Below are positions 18,266-33,674 of a DNA stretch of 64,000 nucleotides, one piece after another. A program made the position numbers and the translations under genes. Below the pieces are notes generated by a model. The model was not told the DNA's origin, ran no database searches, and saw only the letters and a program-made list of their open reading frames with translations. The DNA lies in NCBI RefSeq assembly GCF_002760655.1, contig NZ_PDOC01000024.1, forward strand, positions 1-64,000. Reading direction: 5' to 3'. The DNA is from Massilia eurypsychrophila (GTDB lineage Bacteria > Pseudomonadota > Gammaproteobacteria > Burkholderiales > Burkholderiaceae_D). Numbering within the stretch: the first letter of the stretch is position 1; each line of letters starts with the position of its first letter.

Positions 18266-18625
18266 ATGGCCATTGGCGCCCAGGTACTGATTGCGTTGAT
18301 CGCGCTGTTGCACGTGTATTTCGTGTTGCTCGAGACGGTACTGTTCAAGACGCGCGGGCGGCGCGTGTTCGGGCTCAGCGCCGAGAAGGCCGAGATGATG
18401 GCGCCGGCGATGTCGAACTAGGGTTGCTACAACGGCTTCCTGGTGGCCGCGCTAGTGCTGGGACTGCTGCATCCGGATGCGGCGGTGGCGCGCGCCTTCG
18501 CCGTGTTCGGCCTGGCGTGCGTGGCGGTGGCCGGCGTGTGGGGCGCGGCAACGGTCAAGCGCACCATCCTCTATATACAGGCGCTGCCGGCGGTAATCGC
18601 ACTGGCCTTGCTTTTTCTCGCCTGA
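18266..18625 (+). pseudogene. DUF1304 family membrane protein, interrupted by an amber codon
   Basis: The frame would encode a 119-residue four-helix membrane protein of the DUF1304 family (start MAIGAQVLIALIALLHVYFV; later GCYNGFLVAALVLGLL). Codon 52 (18419-18421) is TAG. Family members have Asn-Gln-Gly followed by a YNGF-like motif at this place, so the ancestral codon was almost certainly CAG (Gln) and one C-to-T change made the stop. Reading resumes in the same frame on both sides. The upstream part alone would be a 51-residue peptide with one or two helices. A sequencing error, or read-through, would restore the gene. Confidence 0.8.
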
Positions 18626-28080: not shown

Positions 28081-28704
28081 ATGGACCAATATGCGCTGCG
28101 CCCGGCAGCACTTCCCACCTGCGGGCAGCGCGTGTCGCTGCGCCTGCTGCACCTGATCGGCTGGAAGGTGCGCTACAAGCCGCTGCCGGGCCCGCACGGC
28201 GTCATCGTCGTGTATCCGCACACGTCGAACTGGGATTTTCCGGTCGGCCTGCTGGCCAAGTGGGCGGTCGGACAGCCGTTCCGCTGGCTCGGCAAGGAGT
28301 CGCTGTTCAAGGGGATTCTCGGCGTCACGATGCGCGCCTGGGGCGGCATGCCGGTCGAACGCGGCGCCTCCACCGGCGCCACCTCGCGCCTGGCCGCGAC
28401 GATGAAAGCGGCGCCGTGGTGCTGGATCGCCCTCGCGCCCGAGGGCACGCGCGGCCACCGCCCGCACTGGCGCAGCGGCTTTTATCACCTCGCGCTCACC
28501 GCCCGCGTGCCGCTGCTGCTGGTGTATATCGACTACCCGAACAAGCTGCTGTCGGTGGTCGACACGCTGGAGCTGACCGGCGACCAGCAGCGCGACATGG
28601 CCGCCATCGCCGCCGTCTACGACGGCCACCACGGCCTGCATCCGGAACTCGAAGCGCCGATCGTGCTGGCGCCGCCGCGCGTCGGCGCCGACACGGTCGG
28701 TTAG
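28081..28704 (+). CDS. Lysophospholipid acyltransferase (PlsC-like)
   Basis: A 207-residue glycerol-phosphate-type acyltransferase. The catalytic HX4D motif is in [12 protein letters not shown], a substrate block in [20 protein letters not shown] and the third block in [10 protein letters not shown]. It probably acylates lysophosphatidate or another lysolipid at the membrane. The last four bases overlap the end of the converging ureG gene, so it is not part of the urease operon. Confidence 0.85.
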
Positions 28705-29318
28705 TACACGGCGTCGAGCAGGCCCTGCTCGCGGATGAACGCCATCACCTTGTCGACGCCTTCGCCGCTGCGCAGATTGGTGAACACGAACGGCCGCGCG
28801 CCGCGCTGGGCCGCGGCGTCGCGCGCCATCACGGCCAGGTCGGCGCCGACATGCGGCGCGAGGTCGGTCTTGTTGATGATCAGGAGGTCGGAACGGGTGA
28901 TGCCGGGACCGCCCTTGCGTGGGATCTTCTCGCCGCCGGCGACGTCGATCACGTACAAGGTCAGGTCGGACAGCTCGGGACTGAAGGTGGCCGCGAGATT
29001 GTCGCCGCCGGACTCGATCAGGATCAGGTCCAGGTCCGGGAAGTCGGCCTGCATGCGCGCGATCGCTTCCAGGTTGATCGAGGCATCCTCGCGAATGGCC
29101 GTGTGCGGGCAGCCGCCGGTTTCCACTCCCATCAGCCGCTCGGGCGCCAGGGCGTTGGCGCGCACCAGGATGTCCATGTCCTCGCGCGTGTAGATGTCGT
29201 TGGTGATGACGGCCATGTCGTAGTCGTCGCGCATGCCCTTGCACAGCATCTCGCACAGCGCCGTCTTGCCGGAGCCGACCGGCCCGCCGATGCCGACCCG
29301 CAGTGGATTTGAACTCAT
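28701..29318 (-). CDS. ureG: Urease accessory GTPase UreG
   Basis: A 205-residue SIMIBI-class GTPase that delivers nickel for urease maturation. The P-loop [15 protein letters not shown], the nickel-site Cys-Pro-His ([13 protein letters not shown]), IESGGDNL and the guanine-specific NKTD ([14 protein letters not shown]) are all intact. The ATG at 29318 has GAGGA upstream; the longer frame is not family-like. It is the last gene of the ureDABCEFG operon, and its function depends on UreF, which is interrupted here. Confidence 0.96.
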
Positions 29319-29334: not shown

Positions 29335-30000
29335 TCATGAGCGGTAAAGCCGTCCATGCTGCACCTCGTGCCGCATCGACAGCATGGAGTAGCCAGGCGC
29401 CCAGTTCGACATCGCGCAATCGGTCAGCGTGCAGGCGCGCTGCGCCGCCTGTTCAAGGTCGGGCGCCAGCGACAGCAGCAGGCGCTGGCCGGCCACCTGC
29501 CCCAGCGGCACCGACTTGACGCACACCAGCACCTGGTTCTCGCTCCACGAGAACAGCATCGCCAGCAGCGCCTCGCGGTGCGGAATGCCAAGCGCCGACA
29601 CGGCGCAGGCGAATGCGGTGGGCAGACTGACTTCGGCGCCCAGCCTCGAGACGTCGGCCACGCCAAGTTCGGCCACCAGCCTGGTCAGCGAATAGCCCAT
29701 CTGGATCGTCTCGGCGCGGAACTCGGCGCTGTCGCGCGAGGCGATGAAGCGCTCGCTCCACAAGGCTACTTCGGCGTCGTCGCCGGCGTCGAAGGCCTTG
29801 AGCAGGCGCCAGAGCAGCGGCGCATCCCACGTGGCGATGACGTCGTGCAGGCAGCCGGCGATCCACGCGCGCGCCGAAGCGGCATCGGTAACCGAGCCCT
29901 CGTCGATCGCCGTTTCCAGCCCTTGCGAGTAGCTTTAGCCGCCGATCGGCAGCGCAGGGCTGGCGAACTGCAGCAAGTGCAGCAGCGCGGCGGCGTTCAT
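29335..30000 (-). pseudogene. ureF: Urease accessory protein UreF, interrupted by an ochre codon
   Basis: The frame from the ATG at 30000 encodes MNAAALLHLLQFASPALPIGG, then TAA at codon 22 (29935-29937), and continues in the same frame with SYSQGLETAIDEGSVTDAASA and so on to 29335 (about 221 codons). UreF proteins have an aromatic residue (Phe or Tyr) between LPIGG and SYSQGLE, so the stop replaces that residue; TAC or TAT to TAA is a one-base change. Nothing else is damaged and no frameshift is needed. UreF joins UreD and UreG in the activation complex, so a true stop would impair urease activation unless translation reads through or restarts downstream. Confidence 0.85.
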
Positions 30001-30503
30001 GCGGGCGCCTGGTCGCCAGGCCGGTGGATTTTCTGGCGCGCGGGAACGGGCGCTAGAAAATGGTCGTCGTGACGGTGGCTGGCGCCGGCGTAGGCGCCCT
30101 GCTCCGGCTCGAACGCGGCGGACTGCTCCTCCACGCTGGCGCCGAGTCCTTCGACCATTTCGCGCAGCACCGGGTCGGCGCGGATGGTCAGCATGCCCTC
30201 GCCGATCTGCACTTGGGTATGGCGATTCCCGAGGTGGAAGGCGCAGCGCGCCAGCACGAATGCGCTGTCGCAGCGCACTGCGTAGGTCGGCTCGAGCGCG
30301 GCGACCACTTCGACCACGCGGTGGTCGGCGCCGGTCATCAGGTCGCCGCCGCGCAGCACGGTGCCGCGCACGGTGAAGATGGCCACTTCCTCGCCGGAGT
30401 CGAGGCGCGCGCGCAGCCGGCATTTTTCGCGCTGGTCGTACGGCAGAACGAGCCGGCCGTACAGGTCGGCGGCGCTGGCGATTTTGGTGTGCAAGGTCAG
30501 CAT
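29997..30503 (-). CDS. ureE: Urease accessory nickel metallochaperone UreE
   Basis: A 168-residue nickel-binding protein. The N-terminal domain (LTLHTKIASAADLYGRLVLP, later SGEEVAIFTVRGTVLRGGD) and the C-terminal metal domain (YAVRCDSAFVLARCAFHLGN, then RHTQVQIGEG) match UreE. The C-terminal tail has a modest His cluster (SHRHDDHFL). The stop overlaps the ureF start as ATGA. It delivers Ni(II) to the UreG complex. Confidence 0.94.
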   Translation of the reverse strand: MLTLHTKIASAADLYGRLVLPYDQREKCRLRARLDSGEEVAIFTVRGTVLRGGDLMTGADHRVVEVVAALEPTYAVRCDSAFVLARCAFHLGNRHTQVQIGEGMLTIRADPVLREMVEGLGASVEEQSAAFEPEQGAYAGASHRHDDHFLAPVPARQKIHRPGDQAPA

Positions 30504-30513
30504 GTTCGCTCCC

Positions 30514-32214
30514 TCAGAACAGGAAATAGCGCTGCGCCATCGGCAGCACGGCGGCAGCTTCGCACACCAGCAGTTGACCGTCGGCGCGCACTTCGTAGGT
30601 TTCGGGATCGACTTCCATGTGCGGCGTGGCGCCGTTATGGATCATGTGGGACTTGCGCAGATGACGCATGCCGCGCACGGGAATGAGCGTCTTTTGCAGG
30701 CCGAGCTGGCGGCCGATGTCGGCGTCGAACGCGGCCTGCGAGACAAACGTGAACGATTTTTTGAGGCCGCCACCGAAGGCGCCGAACATCATCCGGTAGT
30801 GTACCGGCTGCGGCGTCGGGATCGAGGCGTTCGGGTCGCCCATCTGGGCGGCGGCAATCATGCCGCCCTTGACGATGAGCGATGGCTTGACGCCGAAGAA
30901 GGCCGGCTTCCACAGCACGATGTCGGCGATCTTGCCTACTTCGAGCGAGCCGACGACATGCGACACACCGTGCGTGATGGCCGGGTTGATGGTGTACTTG
31001 GCGATGTAGCGCTTGACGCGGAAGTTGTCGTTGCGGACGGTGTCGGGCGCCAGGGCGCCGCGCTGCTGCTTCATCTTGTGCGCCGTCTGCCAGGTGCGCA
31101 TGATGGTTTCGCCGACCCTGCCCATCGCCTGCGAGTCGGACGACATCATCGAAATGGCGCCGATGTCGTGCAGGATGTCCTCGGCGGCGATGGTCTCGCG
31201 TCGGATGCGCGACTCGGCGAACGCCACGTCCTCGGCGATGGCCGGATCGAGGTGGTGGCACACCATCAGCATGTCGAGGTGCTCGTCGAGCGTATTGACG
31301 GTGAACGGGCGGGTCGGGTTGGTCGACGACGGCAGCACGTTGGACTGGCCGACCGCGGCGATGATGTCGGGCGCGTGGCCGCCGCCGGCGCCTTCGGTAT
31401 GGAAGGTGTGGATGGTGCGGTCCTTGAACGCGGCCAAGGTGGACTCGAGGAAGCCGGCCTCGTTGAGCGTGTCGGAATGCAGGGCCACCTGCACGTCCAT
31501 GCGGTCGGCCACCGCCAGGCAGTTGTCGATCGCGGCCGGCGTGCTGCCCCAGTCCTCGTGCAGTTTCAGGCCGATGGCGCCGGCGCGCACCTGTTCCTCG
31601 AGCGGCGCCGGCTGGCTGACGTTGCCCTTGCCGAGAAAGCCGAGGTTCATCGGGAAGGCGTCGGCGGCGCCCAGCATGGCGTGCAGGTGCCACGGCCCCG
31701 GCGTGCAGGTGGTGGCGGCGGTGCCGGTGGCCGGCCCGGTGCCGCCGCCGATCATCGTCGTCACTCCGCTCATCAAGGCTTCCTCGATCTGCTGCGGGCA
31801 GATGAAGTGGATGTGGGTGTCGACGCCGCCGGCGGTGACGATGGCGCCTTCGCCGGCGATGATCTCGGTGGCGGCGCCGATCGCCATCGTCACGTTCGGC
31901 TGGATGTCGGGATTGCCGGCGCGGCCGATCGCCGCAATCATGCCGTTCCGGATGCCGATGTCGGCCTTGACGATGCCCCAGTGGTCAATGATGACGGCGT
32001 TGGTGATGACGGTGTCCATCACGTCGGCATGGCAGCGCTGCGACTGGCCCATGCCGTCGCGGATTACCTTGCCGCCGCCGAACTTGACCTCTTCGCCGTA
32101 CAAGGCGAAGTCCTGCTCGATCTCGATGAACAGGTCGGTGTCGGCAAGCCGGATGCGGTCGCCCGTGGTGGGGCCGTACATTTCGGCGTAGGCCTGACGC
32201 GTGATGGTGGTCAT
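30514..32214 (-). CDS. ureC: Urease subunit alpha UreC
   Basis: The 566-residue catalytic subunit. The nickel ligands and catalytic residues are visible: [11 protein letters not shown] (two His), GLKLHEDWG (the carbamylated Lys), [13 protein letters not shown] (His), [15 protein letters not shown] (His), the flap MVCHHLDP (Cys-His) and [10 protein letters not shown] (Asp). Nothing suggests loss of function in this subunit. It hydrolyses urea to ammonia and carbamate in the cytoplasm. Its ATG overlaps the ureB stop as ATGA. Confidence 0.98.
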
Positions 32215-32519
32215 TCGAGCGCCCCCATCACCAGGCCGTTGAAGCCGTAGACGTGGCGCGCACCGGCCAGGTCGACCAGTTCGACGGTGCGCTGCTGGCC
32301 CGGTTCGAAGCGCACCGCGGTGCCGGCGGCGATATTGAGGCGCATGCCGCGCGCATCGGCGCGGTCGAACAGCAGCGCGGAGTTGACCTCGAAAAAATGG
32401 AAGTGCGAGCCGACCTGGATCGGCCGGTCGCCGCTGTTGGCGACCGCCAGCGTGGCCGTGCGGCGGCCGACGTTGATCTCGATGTCGCCGGGTTCAAGCA
32501 GGTATTGTCCGGGGATCAT
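32211..32519 (-). CDS. ureB: Urease subunit beta UreB
   Basis: A 102-residue structural subunit that begins [20 protein letters not shown] and contains [14 protein letters not shown], as in bacterial UreB. The ATG at 32519 was chosen by family start; the longer frame overlaps ureA. The gene is separated from ureA by seven bases and coupled to ureC. Confidence 0.97.
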
Positions 32520-32526
32520 GGCGCCC

Positions 32527-32829
32527 TCATGGTATCGGGTTGTGGACGGTGACGAGCTTGCTGCCATCCGGGAAGGTGGCCTCGACCTGAATGTCGGGGA
32601 TCATTTCGGCGATGCCGTCCATGACGTCGGCGCGCGTCAGGATGGTGGCGCCCTCCGACATCAGCTGCGCGACCGTCTTGCCGTCGCGCGCGCCCTCGAG
32701 GATGGCGGCGCTGATGAGGGCCACCGCTTCCGGGTAATTGAGCTTGAGGCCGCGCGCCAGGCGCCGTTCGGCCAGCAGGCCGGCTGTGAAGATCAGCAGC
32801 TTGTCTTTTTCGCGTGGGCTCAGGTCCAT
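32527..32829 (-). CDS. ureA: Urease subunit gamma UreA
   Basis: A 100-residue structural subunit that begins [20 protein letters not shown] and contains the conserved [20 protein letters not shown] and [15 protein letters not shown]. It is separate from ureB, as usual outside Helicobacter. The ATG at 32829 matches the family start. The gene is 11 bp after ureD. Confidence 0.97.
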
Positions 32830-32840
32830 GTGCCAGTCCT

Positions 32841-33674
32841 TTATGTATTCCAGATGCGCGGCAGCGGCGCATCGCAGCCAAGCAGGTGCGGACGCAGCGC
32901 CTGCCATACTTTAAAAATGGCGCCGCGCGCCGCCTCGCTGTCGTCGCCCAGGTAGCGCGCCACGCACACCGACTTGACCTGGCTAAGCGCCAGTGCCGGG
33001 TCGATGGCGCGCATGCTGGCCAGTAGGGTTGCCGGCATCGGCGGGCCGACGGCAATGAGCGTTGCGCAGACCGAGGCGCCGTGCAGCCCGAAGCGGCTGC
33101 TGATGCCGTCGGCGTCGACTGCGCCCTGCTCCCACCACACCAGCTTACCGGCGCTGCGAACCTGGGTGCGCTGGCGGATTACGCCGCGGCGGAACGACTC
33201 GCCGGAAGCGCGCCGACCGAAGCACAGGATCTCGCCGCCGATGTAGCGCGCCCCCTCCTCCAGTTGGACATCGTGATCGAGGACCACGTTCGCATCGTCG
33301 AAAAATATGGTCTCCTGCGGCATCCACTCGAAGGCTGCGCCGGCGCCGGCGCGGATGCGCACGTCCTGGCGCGAGACGCGGCCGTTGGCGCGGTACCACT
33401 TCGACGCTCCAGGCGTGGTGAGGAAGGCGTGGCTGCCGGCGCCGGCGCCGGCATCGAGTTCGAGGCAATCACCGCCGACCACGCCGCCGGGCGGATGGAT
33501 GACGATGGCGTGGCAGATGCGCGGGCCTTCCGGATACAGCGGCTTTTGCACGCGCAGCGGTCCGCTGTGGGCGCGTTCGACCAGGCGGGTGACGCCGGCA
33601 TCGTCGGCGAAGCGCAGCCGCAAGCTGGCGCGCCAGGTGGTGGTGGGATGGTCGGAGCGTGGGCAGTCTGGCAT
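32841..33674 (-). CDS. ureD: Urease accessory protein UreD
   Basis: A 277-residue scaffold protein of the urease activation complex, recognised by [49 protein letters not shown] and [12 protein letters not shown]. It is the first gene of the operon. The ATG at 33674 gives a family-typical N-terminus but has only a weak ribosome site (TTGGGGC). A sigma-54 motif lies so close upstream that the transcript would be nearly leaderless; an alternative start is the in-frame TTG at 33623. Confidence 0.94.

Follow-up and report, generated by a model that had tools for sequence, protein, structure and literature searches.

Introduction

In enterohaemorrhagic Escherichia coli, a natural premature stop in the accessory gene ureD silences urease. 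The locus described here, from Massilia eurypsychrophila, differs in that the affected gene is ureF. A similar arrangement, with a broken accessory gene in an otherwise present urease cluster, has been described for the mutated ureD of Yersinia pestis, in which urease activity is reported to be abolished (PMC4773443). By contrast, the same account places the Y. pestis mutation in all strains and ties it to flea-borne transmission, whereas ours affects ureF, is seen in a single genome, and has no known ecological link. Subclade 2 of Staphylococcus saccharolyticus is likewise described as carrying a premature stop in one urease gene, accompanied by a lineage-specific lack of activity, but there an insertion disrupted the structural gene ureB, and the genome holds about 300 pseudogenes (PMC6423177).

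Single in-frame stops in otherwise constrained prokaryotic genes, such as the one in ureF, have been treated by Belinky et al. 2021, whose account proposes that they are frequently read through (PMC7918605). However, that study required a stop at the same place in at least two genomes, and the ureF stop is seen in one. A further parallel comes from the natural suppressor tRNAs described in bacteria that use the standard code, where, as here, a stop-codon anticodon accompanies nonsense-interrupted genes (PMC13092985). Unlike those suppressors as described, the tRNA considered below carries UUA on a tRNA-Ser-like gene with an unusual position 33, and its genome shows no stop avoidance. Our literature searches for ureF pseudogenes, a natural bacterial UUA suppressor, and nonsense mutations in Massilia urease genes turned up no matching case. 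By analogy, the ureF case resembles known urease silencing and would represent an ordinary new instance of it.

Results and Discussion

The ureF gene lies on the reverse strand at 29335..30000 of the window (the whole 64,000-nucleotide stretch of DNA that was analysed) and comprises 221 codons plus a stop. Its ATG is at 30000, and codon 22 (29935..29937, reverse strand) reads TAA in the context CCG ATC GGC GGC TAA AGC TAC TCG, confirming the original prediction of a stop at this position. Downstream of codon 22, the frame is open until a TGA at 29337-29335. Read through with X at the stop, the translation spans the UreF profile PF01730 fully (1-151 of 151, 130.7 bits against a cut-off of 23.3), with the match covering residues 37-179, and four distinct solved UreF sequences align with residues 5-221 or 9-221. 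This frame is interrupted at codon 22 by the TAA. A PF01730 search of the window's genome (G000) returned a single UreF match, and the second copy that might have compensated for the stop was not found in this assembly.

We aligned ureF from 84 places, consisting of two own copies with TAA and 82 relative loci. The latter were the best 80 of 198 relatives from a contig scan plus two congener copies, and two of them (L002 and L083), whose contigs share a length of 18330, are probably one record. Codon 22 encodes Tyr in all 82 relative loci (80 TAC, 2 TAT), and none of them contains an internal stop. Of the two residues that had been expected here, Tyr therefore held throughout and Phe did not occur. 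With a stop where every aligned relative carries a residue, ureF has the form of a nonsense pseudogene. The closest named relatives of the gene are from Massilia species (82-83%), and the closest overall is a metagenome-assembled bin (86%).

All six other urease genes, also on the reverse strand, match their families (UreD in Pfam only), and each contains a terminal stop only, so the expectation of an otherwise intact operon was borne out. These are ureG (28701..29318; TIGR00101, 334.7 bits), ureE (29997..30503; UreE_N and UreE_C), the urease alpha subunit gene ureC (30514..32214; TIGR01792, 974.7 bits, profile 2-568 of 568), ureB (32211..32567), the gamma subunit gene ureA (32527..32829; family profile match), and ureD (32841..33674; PF01774, 188.6 bits). 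The best family match of the ureB frame begins at residue 17; therefore, its true start is probably about 32519. The ureG start lies 16 bases past the ureF stop, and with a start of its own ureG may still be produced despite the interruption. The catalytic motifs of the urease proteins are otherwise, we take it, recognizable. The UreG translation retains the Cys-Pro-His nickel motif named in published work (PMC3792862).

Across 294 sampled genomes of the family, UreF was matched in 193, and among the matches listed, an internal UreF stop appears in the window's genome only. A UreC-type match was present in 200 genomes, in 196 of them above the curated cut-off, and we set aside eight weak matches (E above 1e-5), none of them accompanied by a UreF match. 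UreC was matched strongly (E below 1e-30) in 192 genomes, and UreF was also present in 191 of these, indicating that UreF is normally retained alongside UreC. The one genome without UreF, G210, is a fragmented assembly (410 contigs), and two genomes (G053 and G283) contained UreF without a strong UreC.

Within the genus, ureF was found in three of five genomes and UreC in the same three; two of the four congeners (G001 and G004) are without urease, the alpha subunit being absent in two of the five genomes. In the complete genome G004, the points matching window positions 28681 and 33975 are only 511 bp apart (L253:15256-15767; G004:C1 about 2305256-2305767), and urease is absent between them. 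Because five of six outgroup loci (L003, L004, L007, L018, and L024) retain part of the window's 27.5-28.7 kb neighbourhood near urease, a deletion best explains why G004 is without the operon, and from these sequence comparisons it appears more likely than a gain elsewhere. The remaining outgroup locus (L012) contains the operon only, with no match to this neighbourhood, and L018 also matches window 34.1-37.8 kb in a different order. It is possible that G001 and G004 share one loss. Urea carboxylase, as an alternative route, gave 15 matches, none above cut-off, and the strong matches cover positions 1-442 only and were read as biotin carboxylases.

Selection on ureF appears to have been maintained, with an omega of 0.24 relative to the sister genome G003. 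Outside codon 22, parsimony with outgroups assigned 13 synonymous and 13 nonsynonymous changes to the own branch and likewise 13 and 13 to the sister's, and this comparison detected no relaxed selection in ureF. A very recent inactivation would leave no such trace. The lack of decay therefore means that the stop is very recent, is a sequence error, or is read through or otherwise tolerated. Operon-wide, nonsynonymous changes numbered 91 of 201 on the own branch vs. 56 of 151 on the sister's (p 0.13), and across the seven urease genes, residue changes at outgroup-invariant sites were own-only in 23 cases and sister-only in 14. This excess on the own branch could reflect mild relaxation, branch length, or errors.

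We favor, with moderate confidence, a genuine and recent point mutation to TAA in the only ureF found, which should deprive urease of nickel insertion. This reading draws on the stop itself, its single-copy setting, the intact remaining operon, the absence of relaxed selection in ureF, and the lack of the operon between conserved flanks in G004. Under it, translation of ureF would end after 21 residues or restart too late, the UreD-UreF-UreG platform for nickel delivery would fail to form, and the urease apoprotein would be made with little or no predicted activity. Given a 21-residue product and a next in-frame ATG, GTG, or TTG 58 codons further on (TTG at 29763), the likely product is apo-urease. 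The need for UreF in nickel insertion, assumed in the original prediction, is supported by published in vitro work, which reports that activation requires a complex of UreF and UreH (UreD) together with nickel-loaded UreG, and that maturation is abolished when UreG is not recruited to this complex (PMC3792862). A urease-negative strain, suggested beforehand as one outcome, is accordingly the best supported one, as judged from this published requirement. Other members of the genus are already without the enzyme, and the change would represent an early stage of the same loss. Counted against this reading is the constraint on ureF, which fits a very recent event but would fit a sequence error, or a gene that is still expressed as protein, just as well.

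The main rival to a recent loss-of-function mutation is an error of sequencing or assembly, or a minority variant taken as consensus, at one base, with the real ureF intact; we consider this possible but distinctly less likely. In its favor, ureF is otherwise as constrained as its sister copy, own-only changes outnumber sister-only changes at the invariant sites, and the 5.95 Mb genome is a draft in 119 contigs. However, its estimated completeness is 100 and its estimated contamination 0.14. The ureF changes are also spread over codon positions in much the same way on the own branch (5/6/15) as on the sister's (6/5/15), which argues against an excess of random errors in this gene. Moreover, only one of the 59 congener proteins matched in the window showed a frame change, at an N-terminal overlap, although nearly all of these matches lay at 2.9-39.4 kb and ureF was not a query.

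Clean nonsense codons are not confined to ureF in this genome, and they bear on both of these readings. The second interrupted gene in the window is a DUF1304 gene (PF06993; 18266..18625, forward strand) with a TAG at codon 52 (18419-18421), a position occupied by Gln in G003 and G004; no match was obtained in G001 or G002. The third is a frame for a GDE_C-domain glucosidase on another contig (L219:4338-6671, G000 contig C27), interrupted by one TAG, at codon 191 as the frame is read. This frame is continuous at the TAG site in G004, G003, and G002, and the G001 match is weak (46 residues). The G004 and G003 rows contain one TGA each outside the aligned part, which begins at query residue 17 or 21; thus, these TGAs are probably 5' of the true start.

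These three genes were the only ones confirmed when 2.03 Mb of the genome was scanned by codon usage, an approach that misses weakly coding or short cases. In all, 63 in-frame stops flanked by coding stretches turned up (40 TAA, 12 TAG, 11 TGA). We provisionally took the 48 with an ATG within 10 codons as tandem genes, and the TAA surplus may be due to tandem gene junctions. Three of the remaining 15 (ureF, DUF1304, and glucosidase) were confirmed against congeners, and the other 12 were judged by eye, two of them with a Pfam scan, to be unclear, gene ends, or tandem genes whose start is GTG or TTG or lies further on. Applied to 0.518 Mb of G004, the scan yielded 14 stops (7 TAA), none of which we judged convincing. 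Three further stops in the window, all TGA, were flagged against congener proteins and rejected as gene ends or mis-extended starts. In a wider comparison, 52 of 357 G004 proteins matched above 60% in the sampled own DNA, with two more flags: one, at L228, looks like a gene start, and the other, on contig C3, lies in a repetitive frame and may be spurious. With two other clean single-TAG genes in 2.03 Mb, ureF is not unique, and their presence counts in favor of a genuine mutation because such changes occur in this genome. Still, two of the three confirmed genes, each with a clean single-codon stop, fall within one 64 kb stretch of contig, making a local error slightly more likely.

Read-through had been raised as a way in which translation might recover, and a resident tRNA would offer a means: an ochre-type suppressor, tRNA-Ser-like with anticodon UUA, could yield some full-length UreF. 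We regard this as improbable. The gene, at G000 contig C15:106535-106625 (L092:445-535), was found both by Rfam (41.2 bits, gathering 29) and by ARAGORN, and is the only one of 59 tRNA matches in the genome with the anticodon TTA. It has a long variable arm, and within the 294 sampled genomes it comes closest to tRNA-Ser(UGA) genes, reaching at most 79%; all 14 fetched relatives were tRNA-Ser(UGA). Its acceptor, anticodon, and T stems diverge from tRNA-Ser(UGA) with base pairing preserved, and none of 200 shuffles folded as well (6 of 200 for a tRNA-Ser control). The sequence therefore combines a tRNA fold with an anticodon suited to suppression. Also in keeping with a suppressor, ureF has not decayed, such a tRNA could read each of the three confirmed nonsense codons (TAA or TAG), and one survey places suppressor tRNAs in 0.3% of standard-code genomes (PMC13092985).

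Other features of this tRNA speak against function. A tRNA usually has U33 and an encoded CCA end among its decoding features. The UUA tRNA has neither: position 33 is G, and the gene lacks the CCA that 45 of 47 distinct tRNA sequences in this genome encode. Its discriminator base is T. One tRNA-Thr of the same genome likewise has G before its anticodon, and a CCA-adding enzyme could supply the 3' end. Separately, a weak tRNA-Glu-like gene of 81 bases, also without encoded CCA and possibly mobile or degenerate, was observed at L141:100-180 (G000 contig C10). Stop usage in the own genome (n=1075) equals that in G004 (n=357), which is without the UUA tRNA (TAA 35.8% vs. 35.6%, TAG 20.3% vs. 19.9%), and this comparison shows no shift away from TAA or TAG; weak suppression might leave no trace of this kind. 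By a rough estimate, finding three of three stops to be other than TGA is unremarkable. From a tRNA-Ser-like suppressor one would also expect Ser, or some unknown residue, at the stop rather than Tyr. Together, the G33, T discriminator, missing CCA, and unchanged stop usage lead us to hold suppression at low probability, and on sequence grounds the activity of this tRNA in ureF read-through is doubtful.

The genomic setting of the UUA tRNA can be read either way. The tRNA was unmatched in four congeners (G003 being 82% complete), at whose loci ARAGORN found Arg and Pro tRNAs only, and this is compatible with a resident suppressor. However, the tRNA may be a remnant, since it belongs to a small variable island. 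This island (L159:6270-7580, G000 contig C15) adjoins the 3' end of tRNA-Arg(UCU) and carries a ParDE toxin-antitoxin pair. Similarity to G001, G002, and G004 begins at the tRNA-Arg end, except that the ParDE part matches G004 at 67%; the contig of G003 stops at the tRNA-Arg locus and gives little information. Searches for the tRNA in mobile DNA gave no plasmid match and six weak hits in phages, of which four carry a tRNA-Ser annotation. The broader scheme, in which the tRNA would be a natural ochre/amber suppressor sustaining low levels of UreF and other interrupted proteins, shielding their genes from decay and making urease conditionally active through its acquisition, seems to us a long shot.

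Least probable of all is a shortened, working UreF from a downstream restart: the frame is open to its end and the TTG at 29763, which opens the longest frame available for a restart past the TAA, would give 142 amino acids (29335..29763, reverse strand), but the product would be without residues 1-79, including the first 43 of the Pfam match, and alignments to the solved UreF sequences begin as early as residue 5 or 9. We also rejected the earlier suggestion of a restart from the overlapping ureE stop, since that TGA overlaps the ureF ATG itself (29998-30000), upstream of the TAA, and restarting ribosomes would still reach codon 22.

Implications

If the UUA tRNA works, this genome would provide a natural test of a suppressor tRNA preserving nonsense-interrupted genes. 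If the ureF stop is real, as in the recent nonsense mutation that we favor, annotation would call this strain ureolytic, probably wrongly, and the genus would offer a graded series of urease loss, from intact through nonsense-interrupted to absent.
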